A stretch of 64,000 bases of DNA from Fictibacillus nanhaiensis (GTDB lineage: Bacteria; Bacillota; Bacilli; Bacillales; Fictibacillaceae), in the NCBI GenBank assembly GCA_016401345.1, contig JAEACG010000001.1, forward strand, positions 1,116,001 to 1,180,000, read 5' to 3'. This document shows, in pieces, positions 3,424-17,882 of the stretch. Numbering within the stretch: the stretch's first letter is position 1; every line of letters starts with the position of its first letter. Both the position numbers and the translations under genes were made by a program. Below the pieces are notes generated by a model. It did no database searches and was not told where the DNA came from. It saw only the letters and a program-made list of their open reading frames with translations.

Positions 3424-4320
3424 TCAACTTATTCCTGCATTCTTCTTCAGTCTTTCAGCAATCTGCATAAAATCTTCATGGGAGATGCCTGGAGCAAACT
3501 CTTCTGAGATGGAGCGCAATTCAGGCATTGGGGCACCTTCTGGAGCACCGATCACTGTCTCAAGTGGACCACCTAACGGATGCTGACCAGCCCAGATTAA
3601 CGCAATATCTCGATAATCAGTATCACTGAACGTATATAACTTTCTGTGTACGCCTTCTGCTTCAAACTTTCGTGTCGTTTCAAAAGCTGAGTTCTCTAGA
3701 TCAGGAACTGGCAGCATCTTCTTAATGTCGACGCCTGTAACCATCTCGATCGCTTTTGCATATGCCAAAACATGCACACCACCGCGTACAAGAAGATAGC
3801 CGATCATCTCTCGAGCAACAGGGTTACTCGTCATCTCATAAACTCTCATCTTATGTGTTCTGGCTCCACACTCTAAGAAAAAGTTGTGCAGGAGATCAAG
3901 GAGTAAGTTTCCGCTGCTGAACACATAATCACCGTTCCAAGCTTTCCCCATCGAATCAAAAGGGAAGGATGTTTGTGCGGTCCCAATAAAATGCTGTGTG
4001 TTCCTCTTGTCAGTAGCAGCTGCCATTGGCGCATCATTGACATCACCTGGATGTGTCGTGCCATAGATCATCATATTAATGGTATGTGAAACAAGCTCAA
4101 CATGCCCAAATTCTTCTGCAGTAATACTTGAGACGAGATCAAAGAACGGTTTTAATTTCCCTCGTTTTCTAAAGTTAAAAGATTGATACATATAATTATT
4201 AAGTGTCGACATCTCACCAAAACGACCGCCTAGCAATTCTTGAACCGCAGCGGCCGCATTCGCATCAGGATTCGTAGGTGTTGGTAGTTCGATCGCCAGC
4301 CGGTTATAGCGTTTAAACAT
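3424..4320 (-). CDS. Manganese catalase
   Basis: The 298-residue protein matches the non-haem dimanganese catalase family (B. subtilis YdbD, spore-coat CotJC), which dismutates hydrogen peroxide in the cytoplasm. The four-helix ferritin-like bundle supplies the metal ligands: Glu36 (RFGEMST), Glu70 and His73 (EEFGH) in the first half, and a Glu / His pair in the second half (REMIGYLLVRGGVH). Length is typical. The ATG at 4320 has a GGAGGG ribosome site, and the gene is monocistronic with its own terminator. In Bacillus relatives the family is often under general stress control, but no convincing SigB box was found here. Confidence 0.93.
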   Translation of the reverse strand: MFKRYNRLAIELPTPTNPDANAAAAVQELLGGRFGEMSTLNNYMYQSFNFRKRGKLKPFFDLVSSITAEEFGHVELVSHTINMMIYGTTHPGDVNDAPMAAATDKRNTQHFIGTAQTSFPFDSMGKAWNGDYVFSSGNLLLDLLHNFFLECGARTHKMRVYEMTSNPVAREMIGYLLVRGGVHVLAYAKAIEMVTGVDIKKMLPVPDLENSAFETTRKFEAEGVHRKLYTFSDTDYRDIALIWAGQHPLGGPLETVIGAPEGAPMPELRSISEEFAPGISHEDFMQIAERLKKNAGIS

Positions 4321-4724: not shown

Positions 4725-5525
4725 CTATTTCACATATTTTGATGATAGTGTTACAGATCCTAGACCATCGAACTGTGCAACAATCGTGTCATCCATATCA
4801 AAAGCAATCGCTTCAGATAATGCCCCGCTCAAAACGATATCTCCTTTTACTAAACCTTCACCACGCTCGGCAAGCTTTTGAACAGCCCACGCTACCGCTT
4901 CAGCAGGATGACTAAGAACTGCAGATCCCGCACCGGTTGTCATAATCTCTCCATTCTTACTCATCACCATCCCGATATTCGCCATATCAAGTTCTTCTGG
5001 CCGAACCATCTTGCTTCCTAAAATCAATTTGGCGGATGAGCAATTGTCTGCCACAACATCAGGAAGGGTAAAACGAAAGTCCTTGTAACGGCTGTCGATT
5101 ACTTCGATCGCAGCTACCACATACTTTGCCGCCCTCATGACATCTGATGCTGTCACATCTTTTCCCATCAAATCCTCACCCATAATAAAAGCGATCTCTG
5201 GTTCAGCTTTTGGATGGATGAGACGGTGTTGCTGTAAGGGTTCCCACTCGAATGCGAGCATATCACTCAACAGATAACCGTATATCGCTTCATGAACGCC
5301 CATCATCTCTTGTTTCGCTTTACTCGTTAGTCCTAGCTTAATTCCTATACGCTTTGTTTGTGTCTTCTCCATGCGTCTTTCGATCAATTTTTTTTGCAGA
5401 TCGTATGCTTCTTCAATAGATAGTTCAGGATATTGGTCTGTAATCTTGACCACTTCCGTCACATCACTTTCCGCTCTTAAGAGATAATCAACCAAATCCA
5501 CTTTCGTCTTATTCGTAACCGTCAT
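4725..5525 (-). CDS. 2-oxo-3-hexenedioate (4-oxalocrotonate) decarboxylase
   Basis: A 266-residue member of the fumarylacetoacetate hydrolase-like hydratase/decarboxylase family (DmpH / XylI / NahK type). Recognisable segments are KLGLTSKAKQEMMGV, the metal-site stretch HPKAEPEIAFI (two Glu ligands) and AIEVIDSRYKDF. It converts 2-oxo-3-hexenedioate to 2-oxopent-4-enoate and CO2. It is a paralogue of the hydratase at 7473, and the two usually form a complex. It was assigned as decarboxylase rather than hydratase because it sits beside the tautomerase and the other copy is more hydratase-like; the two could be swapped. Spacing to the aldolase stop is 3 bp. Confidence 0.82.
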   Translation of the reverse strand: MTVTNKTKVDLVDYLLRAESDVTEVVKITDQYPELSIEEAYDLQKKLIERRMEKTQTKRIGIKLGLTSKAKQEMMGVHEAIYGYLLSDMLAFEWEPLQQHRLIHPKAEPEIAFIMGEDLMGKDVTASDVMRAAKYVVAAIEVIDSRYKDFRFTLPDVVADNCSSAKLILGSKMVRPEELDMANIGMVMSKNGEIMTTGAGSAVLSHPAEAVAWAVQKLAERGEGLVKGDIVLSGALSEAIAFDMDDTIVAQFDGLGSVTLSSKYVK

Positions 5526-5528
5526 CTT

Positions 5529-6551
5529 CTACACCTCCAGTTTGGCTTTTAGGTCAGCTGCAACTTCTAGGATTAGATCCTCTTGGCCACCTACGGCTTT
5601 TCGTTTGCCTAATTCTATTAAGATATCTCTTGAATCCACACCAAAGCGTTTACCCGCACGTTCTGCATGCAAAAGAAAGCTTGAATAAACCCCTGCATAT
5701 CCCATAGCTAAACTTCCTCTTCGAATTTCCTGTGCACCCGGCAGCATCGGTCCGATTACATCTTCTGCTAGGTCCATCATTTTGTAGAGATCAATACCTG
5801 TGTGTATTCCCATGCGCTCAAGTACAGCAAGCAATACCTCTGTTTGCGTATTTCCTGCTCCTGCACCTAAACAGCGGACACTTCCATCGATGCGTGTCGC
5901 TCCTTCTTCAATCGCAACAAGTGTATTAGCAACTGCTACTGATAGATTGTTATGTGCGTGAAATCCCACTTCAATATCAAGTGATCCCCGCAAAGCCGCA
6001 ATTCTTTCTTTTACTTCATGCGGCAATAATGCTCCCGCGGAATCCGTTACATACACACCTTGTGCTCCATAAGACTCCATCAACTTTGCTTGTTCGAGAA
6101 GCTTTTCAACAGGCGCAGAATGAGCCATCATCAAAAACCCCATCACTTCCATACCAAGTTCACGTGCCATATAGATATGTTGAGCGGATACATCAGCTTC
6201 TGTCACATGTGTTGCCACACGAACAAGACTCGCTCCTAATCTTCCCGCTTGCTTAAGCTCATGAACCGTTCCAATACCAGGCAGCAAAAGAACAGCAACT
6301 TTCGCCTGCTTACACACACCCGCAGCTGTTTCAATCAACTTCATCTCATCTACAAGCGATCTTCCATACTGAAGCGTTGAGCCCCCCAAACCATCACCGT
6401 GACTGACTTCAATGTAATGCATACCTGCTTCATCAAGTGCTTTTGCTGCATCATACACTTGCTTTTCTGTGAACTGATGAGCCATCACATGACTGCCATC
6501 ACGAAGACAGACTTCTGTAAACTTTAGCGGCAAATTGCTATTTCGTTTCAT
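5529..6551 (-). CDS. 4-hydroxy-2-oxovalerate aldolase
   Basis: A 340-residue DRE-TIM-barrel metallolyase of the DmpG/MhpE/BphI type. The N-terminal [15 protein letters not shown] carries the Arg-Asp pair, and the Mn-binding HAHNN motif is near residue 200. It cleaves 4-hydroxy-2-oxovalerate to pyruvate and acetaldehyde. The family channels acetaldehyde to the partner dehydrogenase; here the dehydrogenase gene overlaps this start by 14 bp, which agrees with a channelling complex. Length is typical. Confidence 0.93.
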
Positions 6552-7446
6552 ATGCTGTCACCGCCTTATCCATTTCCCCTTGCCCTAAGTGATGTTTAGC
6601 AACCATTTCTCCAGCTTGTTTAGCGGCTGCAGTCATAATATCAAGATTACCGGCATACTTCGGAAAATAGTTGCCAGCTCCTTCTACTTCAACAAAAACG
6701 GTGATGCGATTCCCATCAAATAGCAGCTCCTGTTTTAATCGGTATCCAGGAACATAGCTCTGTACCTTTTTCTCCATATTTAAAATAGCCGTTCTAATTT
6801 TCTCAACATCAACAAGCTTTACTTCGCAATAAATCGTCGCTCTCATTAAAATCGGAGGATCAGCTGGATTTAAGATAATAATGGCTTTTCCGATATCCGC
6901 TCCACCAACTTCCTCGATGCCACGCCGTGTTGTGATCGTAAATTCATCAATATTTGCACGCGTACCTGGACCTGCGCTTAAGGATGAAATCGTTGCTACA
7001 ATCTCACCATATGAAACGTCAGCAGCTTCATTTATTGCGTGAATCATCGGGATGGTAGCTTGCCCGCCACAAGTAATCATATTGATGTTCCGAGATTGCA
7101 TATGTTCACCTGAATTAACCGGCGGACACACGAAAGGTCCAACGGCAGCAGGCGTCAAATCAATCACTGTTTTTCCCATATCTTTTATAATCTCTGCATG
7201 CCGTAAGTGAGCTTTAGCTGAAGTTGCATCAAAAACAATATCAGCTAACTCTGGACGTTCAACAAAGTCATTAATTCCGTTCGTAAATACTCTGTACCCT
7301 GCAGAGTTGGCTCGTCTTAAGCCTTCAGACTCCGGATCGATTCCAATCATCGCCGTTAGTTCTAAATAGTCACTTTTTTGAAGCTTGTACATCAGATCCG
7401 TACCAATATTCCCCGAACCAATTATGGCTGCTTTCATCTTTTTCAA
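6538..7446 (-). CDS. Acetaldehyde dehydrogenase (acetylating)
   Basis: A DmpF/MhpF/BphJ-type enzyme that oxidises acetaldehyde with NAD and CoA to acetyl-CoA, completing the meta pathway. The N-terminal [13 protein letters not shown] is the Rossmann nucleotide site, and the catalytic Cys lies in [11 protein letters not shown]. The start is placed at the TTG at 7446 (MKKMKAAII..., 302 residues), which has AAAGGA 9 nt upstream; a GTG at 7467 would be longer but lacks a ribosome site. It overlaps the aldolase gene and follows the hydratase by 26 bp. Confidence 0.92.
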
Positions 7447-7472
7447 TGTATTAGGTCCTTTCTGCACAGTTT

Positions 7473-8258
7473 TTAATCCCGAAATGAGATGGTTACTGAA
7501 CCTAGTTTTCCAAAAGAGGCAGTCACTTCATCGCCTGAATCTATGTCTATCGCAGCAGACAGTGCACCTGGCAGAATTAACTCTCCCGCTTTTAATGAAA
7601 TGTTGTAGTCTGCTAGTTTATTTGCAAGCCATGCTATGGCATGTGCTGGATGCCCAAGAGCCGCAGCTCCGGCTCCAGTCGCCGTCACTTCACCATTCTT
7701 TAAAAGTGTCATGCTCAGTGTGCGCAAATCAATTTGGTCCATCTCGTAAAATGGTTTCCCTACAACTGCTCTAGCCGATGAACCGTTGTCAGCGACAGTA
7801 TCCACAAGCTGAATCTTCCAATTTTCTATTCTGCTATCGATAATTTCAAGTGCCGGCACAATCGCTTCTGTTGCCATCAGTACATCCACGTATGTCACAT
7901 TCGGACCCCGTAAGTCTTCTTTTAAAATAAAGCCGATTTCCGCTTCTGCTTTCGGTTTAATAAAATCTTTTCTGCTGAGAACACCGCCAGAGTCAACCTT
8001 CATATGATCTAACAGATGACCGTAATCAGGCTCATCAACCCCAAGCATATTTTGCATCGCCTTACTCGTGAGCCCTACCTTTTTTCCTATCACCACACGA
8101 CCTGCTTCAAGCTTCCTTTCAACCCACTCAAGCTGAATTTCATATGAATCCTTTACCGACAATTCTGGGAAACGTTTGGATAGTGGCTCTACCGGAGTCA
8201 GCTTCTCTTCTGCTTTTAAAAGTTCTTCCGTTAATTTTGAAATCACTTGCTTTTGCAT
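7473..8258 (-). CDS. 2-hydroxypenta-2,4-dienoate hydratase
   Basis: A 261-residue protein of the same fold as the decarboxylase at 4725 (DmpE / MhpD / XylJ type). It has the segments [32 protein letters not shown] and [12 protein letters not shown]. It hydrates 2-oxopent-4-enoate to 4-hydroxy-2-oxovalerate. It is the first gene of the downstream half of the pathway, separated from the semialdehyde dehydrogenase by 425 bp of repeat-rich DNA. It may be transcribed by read-through or from a weak internal promoter; none was recognised. Confidence 0.83.
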
Positions 8259-8683: not shown

Positions 8684-10153
8684 CTATAACTTCATCGTGA
8701 TCGTCTTCGCTTCTGAATAAAACTCGAAGCTGTGTCTTCCGCCTTCACGCCCGATTCCGCTTGCCTTAGAACCGCCAAATGGCGTACGCAAGTCTCGTAT
8801 GTACCAGCAGTTGATCCACAAGAGACCAGAATCTACAGCTGCCGAAACACGTTGAGCGCGGCGTAAATCGTTCGTCCAAACAACACCCGCCAAACCGTAC
8901 TGTGAATCGTTTGCAATACGAATTGCGTCTTCTTCTGTTTTAAACGGTATGACAACGAGCACAGGTCCAAATATCTCCTCTTGTGCAACACGCCATTTAT
9001 TGTTCACATCATATAAAACGGTAGGTTCATAGAAGTTTCCGTTCCCGAGCCCCTCAACCCGTTTACCCCCGCAAGCGAGTTTGGCTCCTTCTTTAATTCC
9101 GATGTCCACAAACGTTTCTACCGTCTCCAAGTGACTTTTTGACACGAGTGCACCCATGTCGGTATCTTCCTGAGTAGGGTCACCTACTTTAATTTTTTTC
9201 ACAGCTGAAACAAACTTGTCCATAAACTGATCATAAATGCTTTCTTGCAAAAGCAGACGGGAACCGGCAAGGCAGATCTCGCCTTGATTTCGGTAGATCG
9301 CATCTATAGACCCTTTTACCGCTTCATCAAGATCTGCATCTTCAAAAACGATGTTTGCCGACTTTCCACCTAACTCCAGCGAAACCGGAATCAAATTTTC
9401 AGCCGCGTTCTTCATAATCGTTTTCCCAGTGTTCGATTCACCTACAAAAGAGATGCGGCGGACGTTTGGATCAGTCGTCATCGCTGACCCCATCGTGCTT
9501 CCTGGCCCAGTGATAATGTTTAATACACCTGGCGGAAGTCCTGCTTCATTTGCTATTTCGCCAAACATGACAGCAGAAAGAGGTGTATATGATGCGGGCT
9601 TAACGACAACTGTGTTTCCAGCCGCTAGTGCTGCGGAAGCTTTCCATGTCATCTGCATGAACGGCAGATTCCAAGGGATAATCAGACTTGTAACTCCAGC
9701 TGGACTGTATTTGGCGTATGACATGATATTGTGTTTGTCATAATGCTCACTCACCATGTACTTGGACATCTCAGCAAAAAAACGGAAATTGGAGGCCGCT
9801 CGTGGAATATCAAACCCTCGGCTCTCTTTGATCGGTTTTCCTACGTCGAGTGTCTCTACCATCGCAAGTTCATCCATGTTTTCCATAATAAGGTCTGACA
9901 TTTTACATAAAATTTCGGATCGTTCTTCTACAGGCATCTTGCTCCAGACGCCGCTATCATAGGCATTTCTGGCAGATTGAATCGCTCGTTTCGCATCTTG
10001 TTCACTGCCGTTTGCAACAAGCGCTAATCTCTCATTTGTTGCAGGATTGATGGATTCAAAGGTTTCACCCGAAAGTGCATCGACATATTCTCCATCAATG
10101 AACAATTTTGCGTTATTCACTTTCACTTGCTGCGTGAGGGTTTCTGCTTTCAT
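8684..10153 (-). CDS. 2-aminomuconate 6-semialdehyde dehydrogenase
   Basis: A 489-residue NAD-dependent aldehyde dehydrogenase with IIPWNLPFMQ, the catalytic Glu segment LELGGKSANIV and the catalytic Cys near residue 300 (QGEICLAGSR). It is closest in type to 2-hydroxymuconic / aminomuconic semialdehyde dehydrogenases (DmpC, AmnC, NbaE). From its place after the ACMS decarboxylase and deaminase genes, it should oxidise 2-aminomuconate semialdehyde to 2-aminomuconate. The start is ATG, 3 bp after the upstream gene. Substrate choice rests on context. Confidence 0.88.
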   Translation of the reverse strand: MKAETLTQQVKVNNAKLFIDGEYVDALSGETFESINPATNERLALVANGSEQDAKRAIQSARNAYDSGVWSKMPVEERSEILCKMSDLIMENMDELAMVETLDVGKPIKESRGFDIPRAASNFRFFAEMSKYMVSEHYDKHNIMSYAKYSPAGVTSLIIPWNLPFMQMTWKASAALAAGNTVVVKPASYTPLSAVMFGEIANEAGLPPGVLNIITGPGSTMGSAMTTDPNVRRISFVGESNTGKTIMKNAAENLIPVSLELGGKSANIVFEDADLDEAVKGSIDAIYRNQGEICLAGSRLLLQESIYDQFMDKFVSAVKKIKVGDPTQEDTDMGALVSKSHLETVETFVDIGIKEGAKLACGGKRVEGLGNGNFYEPTVLYDVNNKWRVAQEEIFGPVLVVIPFKTEEDAIRIANDSQYGLAGVVWTNDLRRAQRVSAAVDSGLLWINCWYIRDLRTPFGGSKASGIGREGGRHSFEFYSEAKTITMKL

Positions 10154-10156
10154 TTG

Positions 10157-10627
10157 TTAGTCCCCCTTCTCTTCTTCCACTTCAACAATCATTTCAATTT
10201 CGATTGCCGTTCCGCCTGGCAGCTGGGCCATTCCAACTGCTGATCGGGCATGCTTTCCTTTCTCGCCAAAAACATCAACCAAAAGATCTGACGCACCGTT
10301 GATTACTTTTGGCTGATCGATAAAATCCTCCGTGCAATTCACGAATCCAAGAAGTTTTACAATGCGTTTTACTTTATTTAAACTTCCAAGCTCGTTCTGA
10401 ACCACTGCCAGCAAATTCAGCATGGATTGGCGAGAAGCGGCATACCCGTCTTCTAAGGATAAGTCTCTTCCTAGCTTTCCGTGGTATTGATCGACACCTT
10501 GTCCGGCTGTAAATAGAAGATTACCCACTCTTACACAGCCAACATAGTTTCCGACAGCTCTGCGCACTTCAGGCAATATGATTCCTAACGCTTCAAGCTT
10601 ATCCTCCGGTGTTTGAATGACTTGCAA
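10157..10627 (-). CDS. RidA/YjgF-family 2-aminomuconate deaminase
   Basis: A RidA-fold protein of about 156 residues, with the typical GNLLFTAGQG strand and a C-terminal half ending in AIEIEMIVEVE. In 2-nitrobenzoate and 2-aminophenol pathways a RidA-type enzyme (AmnD / NbaF) deaminates 2-aminomuconate to 4-oxalocrotonate, and the gene's place here fits that step. The start is uncertain: a TTG at 10627 has GGGGTG 6 nt upstream, while a TTG at 10654 gives 165 residues but no ribosome site. Either choice overlaps the decarboxylase gene. Confidence 0.8.
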   Translation of the reverse strand: MQVIQTPEDKLEALGIILPEVRRAVGNYVGCVRVGNLLFTAGQGVDQYHGKLGRDLSLEDGYAASRQSMLNLLAVVQNELGSLNKVKRIVKLLGFVNCTEDFIDQPKVINGASDLLVDVFGEKGKHARSAVGMAQLPGGTAIEIEMIVEVEEEKGD

Positions 10628-11639
10628 CGGCTGCACCCCGCTTTCTTTTACCAAGACTTAAAAATTCAGCAGCGTTTCCGCCAAACATCCCTTTACGCTG
10701 TTCATCCGTCAGCTCAAGCGTTTCGTCCAGGACTTTTCCGGGATTCACTTCACGTAGCAGAAACGGATAATCTGAACCCATAAAGATCTTATCTGAACCG
10801 AATCGCTCCATCATATAGCGGATGTTCATCGGATCGTAATTTAATGAATCAAAATAAAACTGCTTTGCATAATGACTTGGGGGATGTGTTGTCAGGCGAA
10901 GATGCGGCCACACCTGCCACCCTTGATCAAGACGCGGAATCAAGTAAGGAAACGAACCTCCTCCATGAGCAAAACAAATTTTCAGTTTAGGGAATTTTTC
11001 CATCATACCGCTCCAGATAAGTGAAGCTGCGGCTAATGCCGTTTCACTCGGCATCCCGATCGTATACATAAAGTTATGGTTTGGCATACGCTCTTTCCCA
11101 AGCGTTTCCCACGGATGAATAAAGAGCGGCACTTCCCACTTTTCCGCCATCTCAAAAAACGGAAGAAAGTCAGGATGATCGAGATTCTGTCCATTTATAT
11201 TTGTTCCAATCTCGATTCCATGAAGTCCAAGGTCATTCATACAGCGTTCCATTTCACGGATCGCCGTTTCTGAATCCTGCATGGGAACCGTTCCTAGACC
11301 AGCAAAGCGGTCGGGATATTCATTCACGGTTTCGGCTATAAAGTCGTTCTGTATCCTTGCCATCATTTCCGCTTGTTCAGGTGGAGCCCAGTACGAGAAT
11401 GTAACAGGGATCGGGGATAGCACTTGAATGTCTACCCCTTCACGGTCCATGTCCTGTATTCGTTTTTTCGGATCCCATACTTGGTCAGTTACATCTCTAA
11501 AATTTTTCCCGCCTACCATAATGGCTGCGCCGCAAGCACAAGTCCTGTTTAACACCGGCCACCTTTCTCCACCATATTTTTCGGCAAAGTCAGGAAACGA
11601 CTCTGGAATGATATGCGTGTGAAAGTCGATTCTTAGCAC
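10599..11639 (-). CDS. 2-amino-3-carboxymuconate-6-semialdehyde decarboxylase
   Basis: An amidohydrolase-2 family TIM barrel. HTH near the N-terminus (RIDFHTHIIPE), His in CFAHGGGSFPY and Asp in FMGSDYP are the zinc ligands and catalytic residues of ACMSD. It removes the carboxylate from the dioxygenase product, giving 2-aminomuconate semialdehyde. The start is set at the GTG at 11639: GGAGG lies 7-8 nt upstream, and this codon overlaps the dioxygenase stop (GTGCTAA), suggesting translational coupling. A longer frame to 11687 has no ribosome site. Length is about 346 residues. Confidence 0.9.
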   Translation of the reverse strand: MLRIDFHTHIIPESFPDFAEKYGGERWPVLNRTCACGAAIMVGGKNFRDVTDQVWDPKKRIQDMDREGVDIQVLSPIPVTFSYWAPPEQAEMMARIQNDFIAETVNEYPDRFAGLGTVPMQDSETAIREMERCMNDLGLHGIEIGTNINGQNLDHPDFLPFFEMAEKWEVPLFIHPWETLGKERMPNHNFMYTIGMPSETALAAASLIWSGMMEKFPKLKICFAHGGGSFPYLIPRLDQGWQVWPHLRLTTHPPSHYAKQFYFDSLNYDPMNIRYMMERFGSDKIFMGSDYPFLLREVNPGKVLDETLELTDEQRKGMFGGNAAEFLSLGKRKRGAAVASHSNTGG

Positions 11640-12172
11640 TTCCATTCCTCCACGTTCTCTGGCATCTGATAGCCACAGTCTTTGCATAGACGAACGCGCT
11701 CATTCGAGTTAAAGCTATGAATCGCTTCTTTTACTTGTTTCTCAATATCACTCAATTGCACCGTCACGCGATGCATCTCAGAATCACAGCGGTCACAGAA
11801 CCAAACAAAGTCTTCAAGCTCACCTTGTGCACGTTTACGCTCAATGACTAGACCATACGAGTTCGCCACGCGATGCGGCGAGTGCGGAACCATCGCCGGC
11901 AGCATGAACACGTCTCCTTCTTTTACTTCAACCACTTCACGCTTGCCGTGTTTATTAATGATCTCCACATAACAGCTGCCTTTGATCTGAAAAAAGAACT
12001 CATCTGAAGGATCTACGTGAAAATCACGTCTTTTGTTCGGACCACCTAATATCATGGCGATAAATTCGGAATCTTGCCAAATGACTTTGTTGTTGACTGG
12101 GGGCTTGAGCAAGTCTTTGTTTTCATCAATCCATTTTAATAGGTTAAAAGATTTCAAAGTCGTTGTACTCAT
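11633..12172 (-). CDS. 3-hydroxyanthranilate 3,4-dioxygenase
   Basis: A 179-residue cupin that opens the ring of 3-hydroxyanthranilate to 2-amino-3-carboxymuconate semialdehyde. The catalytic iron ligands are His52 and Glu58 (DFHVDPSDEFF) and His97 (VPHSPHRV). The bacterial-type C-terminal rubredoxin-like iron site is intact: CDRC near residue 125 and CKDC near 160. Size matches NbaC / bacterial HAAO. The gene follows the monooxygenase by 15 bp, with AGGGAGG upstream of the ATG. This is the enzyme that identifies the pathway. Confidence 0.95.
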   Translation of the reverse strand: MSTTTLKSFNLLKWIDENKDLLKPPVNNKVIWQDSEFIAMILGGPNKRRDFHVDPSDEFFFQIKGSCYVEIINKHGKREVVEVKEGDVFMLPAMVPHSPHRVANSYGLVIERKRAQGELEDFVWFCDRCDSEMHRVTVQLSDIEKQVKEAIHSFNSNERVRLCKDCGYQMPENVEEWKC

Positions 12173-12187
12173 TACAATTACCTCCCT

Positions 12188-13675
12188 TTATTTAGCCAGC
12201 TTAGGCTGGTCCTTCACGAATTCATTTGTTACGGAAAGTGCTTCATCAACCATAGCGAACTTAGCTTTTCTTTTATAACCGTTATAGAAAATCGCTCTCT
12301 TACGGATTGGATCTCCAGTATAATAGCGCTCATATTGCACAAGCCGCTGGCCGAACGCTTCTCCACAAAGATCCCATGCAAGCTTAAACAGCTTTACCCG
12401 TTCAAGTGAGTCCACCCCATCTCGCCCTAAATAATACTTATCAATCTCGCTTCGGATTTCTGGTGAGTTAAAGTCATTTCCTGTCGGGGACATGAGCAAT
12501 CCGCCAGCACCGATAATTTGAATGACCTCGATTGCTCTTGGATACATTTTAGGAAGCATGCCTCTGATCGTCTCAAGCGCAGCAGCATTTGGCATTACTT
12601 CACCAGACGCAGTTGTTTCATACTCATACTCAGCTACTCGCAATAATGAGCGGATCACTTCCACGTTTTGTACAAGTTCACCTAAGTCATTTTGTACATT
12701 CAAGTATCCATCGACACCAATAGAGTCTGCTAGTTTACAAGCGACTTCTGTTGCAAATGCTAGTTTCACATATCCTCTTACACCTGACTGATGAGCAGGC
12801 TGCTGAGCAATGCCTGTCTTCGGATACAAAAGGTTAGCTGCTTCCACATTGTTATAGAGAAATACACGATCCCAAGGCACAAGCACATCATTAAAAACGA
12901 GTAGCGCATCCATCTCTTCAAATCTTGAAGCAAGTGGATGATCAAACTGTGAACGCTTGCCGTCCTGCATCGGTTCACGGCAAATAAGCTTAAGTCCTGG
13001 CGTGTCCACTGGCACCGCAAACGCGAGCGCATAACGTTCATCACCAGGTGCAAAGCCTGGGAACGAGTAGATGATGACTTCATCTGTAATTGGTGCTAAT
13101 GTTGCAAGCATCTTTGCTCCACGAACGATCAAACCTTCTGGTGTCTCCTCAACCGCTCCAAGATGAGTAAACATATCTTTTTGTCCATGTGAGTTTTTAC
13201 TTCGGTCGTTTTGCGGGTTAATGATCGCATGTGTTAAAAACAGATCATTGTCTCTTATGTAGTTAAAATAGTTTTTGATATTGACAGACCATTCAGGATT
13301 GTACTGATCGAGGAACCAGCCATTGTGTGCCATGCCGGTTACAACGACGTTCAAGAAGTCGGGAGTTCGGCCCATGAGTCCAAAAGTAGATTTTGCGTAG
13401 ATTTCAAACAACTGGCTTCTTGCCATCAATTCTTCATAGGTTGTCGGATGGAGAAAAGCATTGTTTACACGTTCACCCGACTCTTTGCAAATATGTGTAA
13501 TGGAATCTTGATATTGCGGATCGTGCTGCATGTCGTACAGTTTAGCGATCTCTTGTATTGGTTGATTAAAAACAGGTTCGTTCACCACATCTGTTACTCT
13601 CCTGCCTTCTAACCAAATTTCTGGCGAACGAGATTTTAAAGCTTGTATATATTGAGCACCAGTTCTTATTCCCAT
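12188..13675 (-). CDS. HpaB-family FADH2-dependent monooxygenase, probable anthranilate 3-monooxygenase
   Basis: A 495-residue member of the 4-hydroxyphenylacetate 3-hydroxylase large-subunit family (N-terminal [13 protein letters not shown], central PQNDRSK, C-terminal RDGVDS). Family enzymes hydroxylate aromatic rings with reduced flavin from a separate reductase. In Geobacillus thermodenitrificans a member makes 3-hydroxyanthranilate from anthranilate; being the first gene ahead of 3-hydroxyanthranilate dioxygenase, this one most likely does the same. No flavin reductase gene lies in the window. The start is the ATG at 13675, with GAGGAGG 8 nt upstream; an upstream in-frame start at 13717 lies inside the promoter. 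Confidence 0.85.
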
Positions 13676-13716: not shown

Positions 13717-13746
13717 ACTATATAAGAAAGCGCTTACAAGTCTCAA
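13717..13746 (-). promoter_or_regulatory. Predicted SigA promoter of the catabolic operon
   Basis: On the minus strand TTGAGA (13746-13741) and TATAGT (13722-13717) are spaced by 18 nt. A cre box fills the spacer and the IclR-type palindrome lies 5 nt upstream of the -35 box. Confidence 0.6.
13725..13738 (-). promoter_or_regulatory. CcpA cre box
   Basis: TGTAAGCGCTTTCT on the minus strand matches the cre consensus TGWAARCGYTWNCW at every defined position. It sits between the -35 and -10 boxes, the classical place for CcpA repression, so the aromatic operon should be shut off on preferred sugars. Confidence 0.75.
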
Positions 13747-13751
13747 TGCTG

Positions 13752-13772
13752 TAATTTCACATTATGAAATTA
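13752..13772. promoter_or_regulatory. Candidate IclR operator 1
   Basis: Perfect palindrome TAATTTCA-CATTA-TGAAATTA, 5 nt upstream of the -35 box of the catabolic operon. The same core occurs upstream of the iclR gene (17864-17882). Confidence 0.75.
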
Positions 13773-13833
13773 TCTGAAAATTTTATCTTCACTGTTGTTT
13801 TTTGTTGATTTCCTCTACAGGCTGCTAATAAAT

Positions 13834-13870
13834 AGAGCCCTCATGCAACATGCAAGAGTGGCTCTTTTTC
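13834..13870 (+). terminator. Stem-loop in the gap between the catabolic and TRAP operons
   Basis: AGAGCC-CTCATGCA / TGCAAGAG-GGCTCT forms a two-part stem, with TTTTTCTTT following on the plus strand. On the minus strand, the direction of the TRAP operon, the tail is ATTTATT, so it may also stop transcripts entering from dctM. Confidence 0.6.
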
Positions 13871-13932
13871 TTTGGCTGTTTTCTAAAGGAATGTTACTTT
13901 TAAATCTTTTTGTTCATTCGCTTCTTTGACAA

Positions 13933-14061
13933 GTTGATTGGAGTGCAAGTTGCGAGACTCCTGCGGGACAGGCGGGCAGGTGAGACACTTATACGTGAAA
14001 CGTCCGAATGTGGCTCACCGCCTGCCCCGCGGAAAGCGAGCAACCTGGAACGGAAATCAAC
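13933..14061. repeat. MITE-like palindromic repeat, copy 2 (intact)
   Basis: A 129-bp element running from GTTGATT to AATCAAC with imperfectly self-complementary arms (GTTGC / GCAAC, GGCAGGTGAGAC / GGCTCACCGCC). It contains no gene and lies between dctM and the catabolic promoter. It is the reference copy for the fragments at 8318, 24913 and 63008. Confidence 0.85.
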
Positions 14062-14103
14062 TACTATCAAAAGCAACAATGAATACGAAAACAGTCTTTT
14101 CTT

Positions 14104-15387
14104 TTAAAGACCGATCATTCTTGGAATCCAAAGTACCGCATCTTCTAAGTATGTGATTAAAAACAAAATAGCAATTGCAATTGCCAAGAACGGCCCTGAT
14201 GCTCTAACTAGCTTTTCGAAACGCACTTCAGCAATGGATGAAACGATAAACAGCCCGGTTCCAACAGGGGGTGTTAATAAACCAATCGTTAAGTTGATGC
14301 AAATGATTACACCAAAGTGTATTGGATCGATCTCAAACGAGGTCACGAGCGGCATAAAGACTGGAACTAAGATAATTAAAGCTGCAATCCCGTCCAGCAG
14401 CATACCGACAAACAACAGCATGACATTAACCAACAGAAGAAAAACGAACGGATTTTCAGAGATGGACAACATGCTGTCTGCAAAAACTTGCGGAAGCTGT
14501 TCAAAAGCAATTAGCCATCCAAAAATATTAGCCATTGCGATCAAGAATGTAACCGTTGCTGTACTTACTACTGTGTTAATGAGGATTTGAGGAATCGACG
14601 TCCATCTCAGTTCTCGATAAAAGAAAACGCCTACTAAGAATGCAATCACGCAAGCTACCGCCGCAGATTCCGTTGCCGTAAATGCACCAGACAGGATTCC
14701 AAAGATAATAACAAATGGAACCAAAAGTGCCGGCAATACCTTTACTGTGCTGTTCCACATTTCTTTTCCTGTCGCTCTTTTACTTTTAGGAAAATTGTAT
14801 TTGTAGCCCATGTAAGCAATAACACTTACAAACGCTACTCCGTAAATCAGTCCTGGAACAATGCCTGCCATAAACAGTCCGCCGATGGATGTTCCTGACA
14901 GCGTCCCGTAAATGATAAAGATCATACTAGGTGGAATAATGGGTGCAATAATAGATGAAGCAAGTGTTAAAGATGATGAAAATTCCCTAGAGTAACCTTC
15001 CTTCTCCATCTCAGGTACCATGATTTTACTCATCATGGCAGCTTGTGCGTTTGCAGATCCTAAGATTGAAGCTAAGAACATGTTAGCAACTACCGTTACG
15101 TATGCTAATCCTCCACGCACATGACCTACGAACACTTTTGCAAACTTAACAAGACGAGTCGTGATTCCTCCGCCGTTCATCAGTTCTCCAGCAAGCATGA
15201 ACAATGGAATAGCAAGCAAACCGAAATTATCAAGACCTGAATACAGTCTCATTGGAGTGGAATCTAATAGAGCGGTGTTCCCGTTGAGAAAAAAATAAAC
15301 GACTGTAATCATTCCTAAAACAAGTGATATCGGAATTCCCATCAACAAAAACAGAATAAAAATCCCGATAATAAGAGCAGTTGTCAT
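14104..15387 (-). CDS. dctM: TRAP transporter large permease subunit DctM
   Basis: A 427-residue protein with about 12 hydrophobic helices and the DctM family segments LVLGMITVVYFF at the N-terminus, PPSMIFIIYG near 150 and LTPPVGTGLF near 380. It forms the Na+-coupled channel of a tripartite ATP-independent periplasmic transporter. Its ATG overlaps the dctQ stop by 4 nt. The shared regulator and position next to the aromatic operon suggest that it imports anthranilate or a related aromatic or carboxylic acid (inference). Confidence 0.93.
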   Translation of the reverse strand: MTTALIIGIFILFLLMGIPISLVLGMITVVYFFLNGNTALLDSTPMRLYSGLDNFGLLAIPLFMLAGELMNGGGITTRLVKFAKVFVGHVRGGLAYVTVVANMFLASILGSANAQAAMMSKIMVPEMEKEGYSREFSSSLTLASSIIAPIIPPSMIFIIYGTLSGTSIGGLFMAGIVPGLIYGVAFVSVIAYMGYKYNFPKSKRATGKEMWNSTVKVLPALLVPFVIIFGILSGAFTATESAAVACVIAFLVGVFFYRELRWTSIPQILINTVVSTATVTFLIAMANIFGWLIAFEQLPQVFADSMLSISENPFVFLLLVNVMLLFVGMLLDGIAALIILVPVFMPLVTSFEIDPIHFGVIICINLTIGLLTPPVGTGLFIVSSIAEVRFEKLVRASGPFLAIAIAILFLITYLEDAVLWIPRMIGL

Positions 15388-15935
15388 AGATCTGCCCCCT
15401 TTGTTTTAATAACGTGAACCAATTGAGCCAGTACATGAACACATGCAAACGTTAAGCCGATTGGAACAGCACTGTAAGGAATCCACATTGGAAGCAGAAT
15501 AGCTGTGGATTTTTGAAAAGCTACCCCGTCTGACAATATCCACGTGTACGTGTACGATAGAATCAAAACTAAAAAGATAATAATGAACACCTGACTGAAT
15601 ACCGCTATCCACATTTTCACTCTTGGCGGGCAATAATCAAGCAATAGTGTAACAGCAGCCTGGGACCTGTACTTCAATCCCAGACTACCACCGATAAAAC
15701 TGATCCAAATCAATAGAAATACAGCAACTTCACCTGACCAAGATAATGGTGCGTTCAAAAAGTAGCGAAATGCCACTGAAACGGCGACAATCACTGCTAA
15801 TGCGAACATGAGAATCGCAGCAAGAAATTTTTCCACCTGACAAATTCCGTTACTAAGGCTCTGAATTATGCCGCTTCCCCCATTTATTGGAGGCTTTACA
15901 CTTTGATTGATATCCCTGTCGTAATTAATCTTCAA
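15384..15935 (-). CDS. dctQ: TRAP transporter small permease subunit DctQ
   Basis: A 183-residue membrane protein with four helices and the family signature SVAFRYFLNAPLSWSGEVAVFLLIW in its first half. It pairs with DctM. The start at the TTG at 15935 is preceded by GGTG at about 9 nt; a start further inside is possible because the first 30 residues are not conserved in the family. There is a 23-bp gap to dctP. Confidence 0.9.
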   Translation of the reverse strand: MKINYDRDINQSVKPPINGGSGIIQSLSNGICQVEKFLAAILMFALAVIVAVSVAFRYFLNAPLSWSGEVAVFLLIWISFIGGSLGLKYRSQAAVTLLLDYCPPRVKMWIAVFSQVFIIIFLVLILSYTYTWILSDGVAFQKSTAILLPMWIPYSAVPIGLTFACVHVLAQLVHVIKTKGADL

Positions 15936-15958
15936 TTAAACCACACCAATCTCTCAAT

Positions 15959-16975
15959 CTACTTTCTTACTGAATCTATAAATTCTTGAATAAGAGGGTC
16001 AGTCGGTCCGTATTTTTTATCAAATTCTTCTATATATGGCTTGAATAGTTCTGGGTCAATATCATAGATTTTCATTCCGTTGTCCGCTAGTTCTTTTCTA
16101 AACTCTTCTTCTTGCCCTGAACGTGTTTCAACCGCATAATCTGCTGCAGCTTCTAAAGATTCACGTACAATCTTCTGATCTTCTTCAGACATGCCTTCAA
16201 ACGTTTTTTTGTTAACCATTGCGACTGCCGGCCAAACCATATGATTTGTAACAGCTCCATATTTTGCAACTTCATAGTACTTGTTTGTAATCGCTGCATC
16301 CAAGTCCATGTCCATTCCGTCGATTACTCCTGTCTGTACAGCTGAGTAAACCTCAGGAAGAGGAAGTCCTTCTGTTGAAGCACCTGTTGATTTATAAAAG
16401 TCCTGCATTGGAGGGCTTGGTGTTACACGAAGTTTTAATCCTTTCATATCTTCAGGTTTTTGAACATCCTTATCTTTAAACAACATGACGCGCTGACCCG
16501 CAAAAAGATAATCCAATCCTGTAATTCCTTGCTCATCTAGTGTTGCTAGGATCTTTTTCGCTGGTTCAGACTGTCTCGCCTTATGTGCTGCTTCCAGATC
16601 TTCAAAAGCATATGGAGCAAACCATGCTGCAAATGAAGGTGAACGGGAGCTTGTGTATGCTGCTGTTATAAAACCAAAGTCAACAGAACCTGATTCGATT
16701 TGCTGCATCATATCCGCTTCACTTCCAAGCTGGGAGGATGGATAGATCTCGAGTTCAATCCTTCCATCTGACCGTTTAGATAACTCTTCTTTAAATTTCT
16801 CTGCAGCTTTATGCCACATGTGTGAAGGCGGTGTGATATGAGCTAGTTTGAACTTGTATGTCTTTCCATCAGAAGATGCATCCCCTGAACTTGCGGAATC
16901 CTTGGCTCCACTGCTGCAGGATGTTAAAAGAATCAATGCCAGCAATACAGTCATTACGATTTTAAATTTCTTCAT
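15959..16975 (-). CDS. dctP: TRAP transporter solute-binding lipoprotein DctP
   Basis: A 338-residue extracytoplasmic receptor. The N-terminal signal ends in lipobox LLTSC, so the mature protein is lipid-anchored. DctP-family hallmarks follow: KLAHITPPSHMWHKAAEKF, the IYPSSQLGSE stretch and the conserved Arg region KLRVTPSPPMQDFYKSTGA that binds substrate carboxylate. The start is the ATG at 16975 with AGGGAG 9 nt upstream; TTG at 16984 is less likely. It is the first TRAP gene after iclR, with 32 bp between, so the four genes probably form one transcript. Confidence 0.92.
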   Translation of the reverse strand: MKKFKIVMTVLLALILLTSCSSGAKDSASSGDASSDGKTYKFKLAHITPPSHMWHKAAEKFKEELSKRSDGRIELEIYPSSQLGSEADMMQQIESGSVDFGFITAAYTSSRSPSFAAWFAPYAFEDLEAAHKARQSEPAKKILATLDEQGITGLDYLFAGQRVMLFKDKDVQKPEDMKGLKLRVTPSPPMQDFYKSTGASTEGLPLPEVYSAVQTGVIDGMDMDLDAAITNKYYEVAKYGAVTNHMVWPAVAMVNKKTFEGMSEEDQKIVRESLEAAADYAVETRSGQEEEFRKELADNGMKIYDIDPELFKPYIEEFDKKYGPTDPLIQEFIDSVRK

Positions 16976-17007
16976 CCCTATCAACTCCCTTATTTATGTA
17001 AGCGTTA

Positions 17008-17757
17008 TTATAAAACACTAATATAACCGAGTTCTTTTGAGATTGACTCTGCTGTTTTAACGACATGATGAATCATTGAAGGTGTATCTTGCCCCAACAT
17101 ATACGAAACTGGTCCTACCATATTAAGTGCAGCGATGATTTGTCCTGTATAAGATTTAATAGGAGCAGCAATTCCATACAACCCCATTTCGTTTTCGTTA
17201 TTGCTGATGGCATAACCATTTGTTCGTATAACATCAAGTTCATTCTTTAATTTTTCAACACATGTAATGGTATTAGGAGCGCGGCGAAGCAATCCCCTTG
17301 ATATGGTCGGCTTAATCATGGAGGGGTTAAAGGCTAGCAATACTTTTCCTGTACTTGTACAGTAGGCAGGTTTTGTATCGCCTATAAAAGTGGGGACAGC
17401 TACTGAATTTGATGAAGCTACTCTTAGAACGAAGCGAACTTCACCACGATCGAGCATTCCGATATGTACGGTTGTGTTAAACCTTCTGACAAGACCTTCG
17501 CACAATGGTAGTGCTTCCGTATTGATGTCTTGCTGATACATGACGTGATTGCTCCATTCGAGCAATTTCCATCCTAATCTATATTTTTTCTGACTGTCTT
17601 GAATCAGTATGCCTTCTGAGCAAAGTGTGCGAACTAAGTGATGAACTGTGCTCGCATTCATATTAAGTTTTTCAGCAATCTGCAAGTTTCCTAGTGCTGG
17701 TTCATCTTTGGTGAAACAATTTAATATCCTTGAAATTTTTTGAACAGATGAGATCAC
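17008..17757 (-). CDS. IclR-family transcriptional regulator of the aromatic regulon
   Basis: A 249-residue protein with an N-terminal winged helix (about residues 1-65, QKISRILNCF ... NASTVHHLVRTL) and a C-terminal IclR effector domain (YCTSTGKVLLAF, GLYGIAAPI). IclR proteins often control aromatic acid catabolism and bind the pathway substrate. The start is set at the GTG at 17757 because GGGGGAG lies 5 nt upstream; TTG at 17760 is too close. Matching palindromes at 17864 and 13752 are the likely binding sites, making it autoregulatory and the controller of both operons (inference). Confidence 0.9.
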   Translation of the reverse strand: MISSVQKISRILNCFTKDEPALGNLQIAEKLNMNASTVHHLVRTLCSEGILIQDSQKKYRLGWKLLEWSNHVMYQQDINTEALPLCEGLVRRFNTTVHIGMLDRGEVRFVLRVASSNSVAVPTFIGDTKPAYCTSTGKVLLAFNPSMIKPTISRGLLRRAPNTITCVEKLKNELDVIRTNGYAISNNENEMGLYGIAAPIKSYTGQIIAALNMVGPVSYMLGQDTPSMIHHVVKTAESISKELGYISVL

Positions 17758-17828
17758 CAATTCTCCCCCTCAAACGGATACGATTTAGTTGAAGTCAGCT
17801 TAGCTACCACCCCTTCCAATATGCGTTC

Positions 17829-17857
17829 ATCGTATTGAAAAAGGCGGACTTGTACAA
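17829..17857 (-). promoter_or_regulatory. Predicted SigA promoter of iclR-dctPQM
   Basis: TTGTAC (17857-17852) and TACGAT (17834-17829) on the minus strand with 17-nt spacing. The -35 box lies 6 nt from candidate operator 2, nearly the same arrangement as at the catabolic promoter. Confidence 0.5.
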
Positions 17858-17863
17858 TATCGA

Positions 17864-17882
17864 AATTTCACAATATGAAATT
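17864..17882. promoter_or_regulatory. Candidate IclR operator 2
   Basis: Palindrome AATTTCA-CAATA-TGAAATT. The arms are identical to operator 1 at 13752-13772 and only the 5-nt spacer differs. Confidence 0.75.

Follow-up and report, generated by a model that had tools for sequence, protein, structure and literature searches.

The window analysed here, a 64,000 nt stretch of the Fictibacillus nanhaiensis genome (contig JAEACG010000001.1, positions 1,116,001 to 1,180,000), carries on its minus strand two neighbouring units: iclR-dctPQM, encoding an IclR-family regulator and a TRAP importer, and an operon beginning with hpaB and nbaC, the products of which are predicted to degrade anthranilate. 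Each unit is preceded by a copy of the palindrome AATTTCA-N5-TGAAATT, which raises the question of whether one regulator acts at both promoters and whether this regulator is the IclR protein encoded alongside. Our analysis indicates that the two palindromes are operators of this neighbouring IclR (gene at 17008-17760), a reading to which we assign a probability of roughly 0.88. The sites, their uniqueness, conservation, geometry and linkage to IclR as well as their fit to a family motif were all computed in this study.

The palindromes, first described in an initial annotation of this DNA, were confirmed as 19-mers at the following positions (operator 1 extends to 13752-13772 with one extra T-A pair):

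13753-13771, strand-neutral: predicted operator 1, AATTTCATAATGTGAAATT on the minus strand, upstream of the hpaB operon
17864-17882, strand-neutral: predicted operator 2, AATTTCATATTGTGAAATT on the minus strand, upstream of iclR-dctPQM

The two 19-mers are identical at 18/19 positions. Agreement between the flanks is limited to 14/40 and 16/60 positions, so the likeness does not stem from a recent promoter duplication. The genome-wide scan that the initial annotation had suggested did not bring up many unrelated copies: across the 4.28 Mb genome, AATTTCA-N5-TGAAATT was matched exactly by operators 1 and 2 alone, and a tighter pattern, AATTTCAYAWTRTGAAATT, has exact copies at the same two sites and no others. 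Three further places match the simpler pattern with one mismatch; two fall within long open frames, and the third (L005) is not covered by any open frame of at least 100 codons. With up to two mismatches allowed, 68 places were found versus 62 for the reversed control, and the looser genome matches are therefore regarded as background.

Comparison across genomes supports the earlier proposal of one regulator for both promoters and indicates that the site tracks this IclR rather than the pathway. In a class sample of 398 genomes, with this IclR called at E ≤1e-60, nbaC was present in 32 and the IclR in five, all among those 32. A site was found at 5/5 of the clusters with IclR (window included; G215 only at four mismatches) and at 0/27 of the nbaC clusters without it, an outcome that has a probability of 1/201,376 under random placement among the 32 when kinship is ignored. 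Two of the 27 clusters do have a three-mismatch match within the fetched 17-20 kb, away from the starts of units.

Orthologues of this IclR are considered here at a total of 54 loci: the window, 34 loci found by scanning genomes with the IclR protein, four from the class sample and 15 from a family search. All 53 loci other than the window (48-100% IclR identity) have the palindrome at the corresponding gene cluster, giving a site at the cluster in 54/54 loci, with three or fewer mismatches to AATTTCAYAWTRTGAAATT in 52 and four in the other two. The 34 scan loci span Fictibacillus, Rossellomorea, Bacillus, Sutcliffiella, Thalassobacillus, Gottfriedia, Alteribacter and other genera, and in every one the palindrome (three or fewer mismatches) lies upstream of the catabolic operon. 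The family search covered 200 genomes from the family to which one distant relative belongs; of its 17 matches, 15 were new orthologues at 48-59% identity, each with a cluster site (14 within three mismatches, L144 at four). Six of these 15 loci (L150-L155, 48-49% IclR identity) have the palindrome with no mismatch. Among 66 distinct sites, eight positions are invariant, and the N5 spacer is itself constrained, reading YAWTR in most.

The arrangement of the genes provides further evidence for a single regulator, as in other genomes the site is also found in front of units that have become separate. The order hpaB-iclR-nbaC, with iclR inside the operon, occurs in 39/54 loci, and these have one site ahead of the operon. 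The 15 split clusters (eleven Fictibacillus, window included, together with L109, L141, L142 and L143) hold 29 sites before separate units; L109 has three, before iclR-dctPQM, hpaB and reductase-nbaC. In the IclR tree as drawn, which is the basis for this reading and was built without L033, the multi-site loci fall in two separate clades; L142, a split cluster with one site, is outside the multi-site label, and the accompanying table of group changes ignores ungrouped rows. L033, from Rossellomorea, has an iclR with an in-frame stop after ~13 codons (near 10001), with the operon and palindrome kept.

The protein and the sites were also compared with what is known of the family. The 250 aa IclR matches PF09339 (44.3 bits, cut-off 22) and PF01614 (117.9 bits, cut-off 24). 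Its best NCBIfam subfamily match, TIGR02431 (PcaR/PcaU/PobR), scored 138 bits, far under the cut-off of 284.75, and the KdgR equivalog NF011671 scored 118.3 bits, under the cut-off of 275. For subgroup iii of IclR-family group 1 (WTT-11-AAW), the main text of Suvorova and Gelfand (2021; PMC8222616) gives the motif WTTYCRYW3RYGRAAW. When the sites (n=68) were compared with this motif, 54 matched exactly, 11 with one mismatch, two with two and one with three, while the best fit to the group 2 motif left four to seven mismatches. The same text describes family members as generally controlling themselves and one or two adjacent operons; the positions of the genome's two exact sites, before iclR-dctPQM and hpaB, would suit such control. 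The recognition helix of the window IclR is NASTVHHLVRTLCSEG. A helix pair within it is HH in 51/53 orthologues examined and NH in two, and it is HG in four distant IclRs whose nbaC loci are without the palindrome.

Several observations weigh against assigning the sites to this IclR. Close kinship among many of the 54 loci means that the counts overstate the number of independent events, and the sites of L111 and L144 need four mismatches. In the 53 loci outside the window there are 88 places within three mismatches, 64 of which were assigned as sites, compared with two such places in the 27 control loci; the three-mismatch pattern alone is unspecific, and the weaker assignments therefore rest on position too. 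Matches with no more than one mismatch away from the cluster occur in 19/398 genomes versus six for the reversed control. The site is absent before iclR in L016, where the DNA differs and the fetched stretch has no dct genes, and a scan at up to four mismatches found no site before iclR in L142 and none before hpaB in L143. Identity over the whole recognition helix fails to separate palindrome-bearing IclRs (4-16/16) from the four without (8/16). Finally, a separate operator before dctPQM was sought within 260 nt upstream of dctP (starts taken from tblastn) in 28 loci, 27 of which have dct downstream of the operon, and was rejected, as no match had fewer than five mismatches.

Near dctP, two further features were observed. 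The 28th of these loci, L143, has a three-mismatch site 352 nt before dctP, beyond the scanned 260 nt. Bare arms, TTTCA-N5-TGAAA, lie close upstream of dctP in L029 (18703) and L033 (18700); their spacer fits the consensus badly, and a cre-like sequence adjoins. At another locus, L146, a palindrome with one mismatch (4141-4159, in the iclR direction) has a -10-like TATCAT ~28 nt downstream and precedes genes for an M20-type amidohydrolase and an ABC substrate-binding protein. It is possible that this copy represents an extension of the regulon towards N-acylated precursors.

We considered three explanations in which the neighbouring IclR has no role. Two AT-rich palindromes may resemble each other by chance, as might be thought from the fact that the pattern at two to three mismatches is no commoner than the control in either the window or the genome. 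The exact copies, however, stand at two promoters only, the site is kept across genera and eight positions are invariant; chance similarity is refuted by this conservation, and we give it almost no weight. An inverted repeat could also act in RNA, as a terminator or attenuator hairpin. This explanation was rejected, with a probability just as negligible, given that the repeat lies upstream of the -35 position of its own promoter, lacks a T run and does not appear among the listed terminators. Binding by a different regulator, encoded elsewhere and controlling both units, has somewhat more to recommend it, since other regulators with palindromic sites exist, but was likewise rejected as improbable, given that the site follows this IclR and fits the IclR-family motif. 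Moreover, the Crp/Fnr-type regulators that accompany other clusters were found in 0/54 of the loci with this IclR, in which other regulators were not systematically searched.

Assuming that IclR binds at the palindromes, its mode of action has to be judged from the promoters. The following elements were assigned:

13741-13746, minus strand: -35 position (TTGAGA) of the hpaB operon promoter, separated from operator 1 by 6 bp
13717-13722, minus strand: -10 box of the hpaB operon promoter, TATAGT
17852-17857, minus strand: -35 position (TTGTAC) of the iclR promoter, separated from operator 2 by 6 bp
17829-17834, minus strand: -10 box of the iclR promoter, TACGAT, weak

The spacing between palindrome and -35 position, previously given as 5-6 bp, was thus 6 bp at both promoters. 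The hexamers of the iclR promoter are weak (7-8/12 match) and were unlisted in a generic promoter scan, the total of which (13) was not above that of shuffles (12.3). In the program-made list of open reading frames, the monooxygenase gene begins with a TTG at 13717, the final base of the -10 box; the start that agrees with the orthologues is the ATG at 13675. Of 66 distinct site regions, 48.25 (ties shared) have their best -10-like hexamer 28-30 nt past the palindrome, versus 3.75 in mononucleotide shuffles, and this distance places the centre of the palindrome near -51. The -35 hexamers include TTGTTC, TTGAGA, TTGTAC and others alike, and in some lineages are unrecognisable.

We lean slightly towards IclR being an effector-dependent activator because the distance from the operator to the -10 box has been kept while the -35 hexamer has decayed, as an activator would leave them. 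The initial annotation had considered the upstream position as suited to activation as to repression; the fixed -10 distance and poor -35 tilt this balance towards activation and are not decisive. Weighing against activation, many promoters retain TTG at -35, one lineage has an extended-looking -10 (TGATATTAT) that would need less help, and in Gottfriedia and relatives a weak second site-like sequence (e.g. ATTTTTTATAGTGAAAT) overlaps the -10 box, which would suit repression. With the same operators, an IclR acting as repressor would, without effector, block RNA polymerase from a place shortly before the -35 position, possibly with a tetramer that extends into the promoter, and would be released by anthranilate or an intermediate. 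Repression is a serious contender to which we give somewhat less credence: the IclR family includes repressors, activators and dual regulators (PMC8222616, main text), the hpaB promoter (TTGAGA-18-TATAGT) could fire unaided, and weak additional sites lie over the -10 box in Gottfriedia and relatives and upstream in three Fictibacillus. In 51 aligned sites, however, the main site is upstream of the -35 position without overlapping the -10 box, and the conserved distance to the -10 box persists where the -35 has degenerated (AGTTTT, TGTAAG, TATAAC), which favours activation.

The additional sites have regular positions. The second site in Gottfriedia and relatives (L040, L041, L043-L049) is 41 bp, or four turns, downstream of the main site, and the weak site in the three Fictibacillus (L022, L024, L108) is 30 bp, or three turns, upstream.

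The catabolic promoter has a further element. CcpA, acting at cre sites of consensus WTGNAANCGNWNNCW, brings about carbon catabolite repression in Bacillaceae, and a sequence of this type is found in the window:

13725-13739, minus strand: TTGTAAGCGCTTTCT, resembling a cre site for CcpA, between the -35 and -10 elements of the hpaB operon promoter

This sequence has no mismatch to WTGNAANCGNWNNCW. In 11/11 Fictibacillus hpaB promoters a cre-like sequence fills the -35/-10 spacer (10 exact, one with one mismatch), a shared placement that recalls the CcpA/cre repression of Bacillaceae, and 28/66 site regions have a cre-like site (up to one mismatch) within 150 nt downstream versus 3.15 in shuffled sequences. 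These cre-like sites suggest that CcpA represses the catabolic operon.

The genes of the two units, in the order in which they follow one another on the minus strand (iclR, dctP, dctQ, dctM, monooxygenase, dioxygenase, amidohydrolase, Rid, aldehyde dehydrogenase, meta-cleavage lower pathway), are:

17008-17760, minus strand: iclR, IclR-family regulator (HTH_IclR and IclR_C), from profile matches
15959-16984, minus strand: dctP, TRAP solute-binding protein, from a profile match
15384-15935, minus strand: dctQ, TRAP small permease, weak profile match only (24 bits), between dctP and dctM
14104-15387, minus strand: dctM, TRAP large permease, from a profile match
12188-13675, minus strand: HpaB-type flavin monooxygenase, probable anthranilate 3-hydroxylase, the substrate suggested by the operon and by passages of PMC4539516
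11633-12172, minus strand: 3-hydroxyanthranilate 3,4-dioxygenase (nbaC type), above the NCBIfam cut-off
10599-11687, minus strand: amidohydrolase (Amidohydro_2), probable 2-amino-3-carboxymuconate semialdehyde decarboxylase, the exact name from context
10157-10654, minus strand: Rid-family deaminase from profile matches, probable 2-aminomuconate deaminase (exact name presumptive)
8684-10153, minus strand: semialdehyde dehydrogenase, probable 2-aminomuconic 6-semialdehyde dehydrogenase (exact substrate presumptive)
7473-8258, minus strand: 2-oxopent-4-enoate hydratase-like, below the equivalog cut-off
6538-7467, minus strand: acetaldehyde dehydrogenase (acetylating), above the cut-off
5529-6551, minus strand: 4-hydroxy-2-oxovalerate aldolase, above the cut-off
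4725-5525, minus strand: 4-oxalocrotonate decarboxylase-like, below the equivalog cut-off

The substrate of the cluster is most likely anthranilate, degraded via 3-hydroxyanthranilate, as judged by analogy. The nbaC-type dioxygenase scored 254.6 bits against TIGR03037 (cut-off 145.95). The monooxygenase has the HpaB fold by Pfam and, at 460.8 bits, was below the cut-off of the 4-hydroxyphenylacetate equivalog (480.2). An NCBIfam profile search gave no match for the amidohydrolase, and among the matches listed no profile model was above its cut-off for the dehydrogenase. A gene for tryptophan 2,3-dioxygenase lies elsewhere in the genome (G000:C12:831212-832006, where the two matches to the family adjoin each other), which makes tryptophan a conceivable source of anthranilate; among the matches listed, no near-match to the palindrome is at this gene. 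A manganese catalase gene (3424-4320, same strand) follows the catabolic operon in the window, and likewise in some Fictibacillus relatives (L019, L108). In related clusters, a ribF-like gene (L113, L115, L120) or a flavin reductase gene (L025, L031, L109, L111), both named by reading the sequence, lies beside the monooxygenase gene.

Taken together, we propose that each site is occupied by one IclR dimer, or by a tetramer through two of its dimers, ~51 bp ahead of the predicted transcription start, and that IclR would thereby co-control its own gene and the TRAP importer as well as the hpaB-nbaC operon. The effector would be anthranilate or a pathway intermediate. Bound IclR would probably help RNA polymerase, giving positive feedback on its own importer, and CcpA at the spacer cre would shut off the catabolic operon when a better carbon source is present. 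Binding, effector, activation and CcpA control are the steps of this model that we infer.

The clusters without this IclR place the model in a wider context. Within the fetched stretches of the 27 loci (L112-L138), 20 have Crp/Fnr-type regulators, four have an IclR of 33-35% identity and three have neither. In 19 of the 20, the Crp/Fnr proteins form a pair with at least 57% identity to the query pair, the other giving a weaker match; Pfam was used to test the domains of eight of these proteins, from five loci. We read the 27 clusters as regulator replacement around one pathway. More tentatively, the pathway in Bacilli may have swapped its master regulator at least two times, between this IclR, the distant IclR and the Crp/Fnr-type pair, with separated units in the IclR lineage carrying their own activator site 28-30 nt from the -10 box and, in Fictibacillus, the spacer cre making the positive-feedback import loop CcpA-gated. 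The 54 clusters with the regulator and the 27 without it offer a comparative case of operators gained at operon splitting and lost at regulator replacement. The assignment links a Bacillaceae IclR clade, for which our literature searches found no published work, to a DNA target and a regulon of two units, and might be used to build an anthranilate-responsive switch for Gram-positive hosts.

These searches returned nothing for IclR with 3-hydroxyanthranilate and, for IclR with "anthranilate degradation", a bark-beetle gut genome paper alone. Broader searches gave nothing evidently on this regulator among the matches listed, and the core spellings of the palindrome occurred once, in an unrelated neuroscience paper. 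Anthranilate, kynurenine and Bacillales names are absent from the main text of PMC8222616, the supplementary site tables of which may include the orthologous group.

Compared with known systems, this is an ordinary local IclR regulon that is new as an assigned member. The operator form ATTTCAYAWTRTGAAAT meets the published WTT-11-AAW motif at all 17 positions, and family regulons in the main text of PMC8222616 are local and autoregulatory, as is predicted here, with aromatic metabolism and DctPQM among the regulated functions. PcaR, PcaU and PobR are regulators of aromatic catabolism, as the present IclR is predicted to be; their motifs are of the GTNCG-N5-6-CGNAC type, whereas the sites described here are AT-rich. 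For the pathway, the closest likeness is to Geobacillus thermodenitrificans NG80-2, in which, according to passages of PMC4539516 (citing Liu et al. 2010), an FAD-dependent hydroxylase converts anthranilate to 3-hydroxyanthranilate, followed by meta cleavage, with a riboflavin kinase/FMN adenylyltransferase among two additional enzymes. The cluster described here, read from its genes, would follow the same course of hydroxylase, 3-hydroxyanthranilate and meta cleavage.

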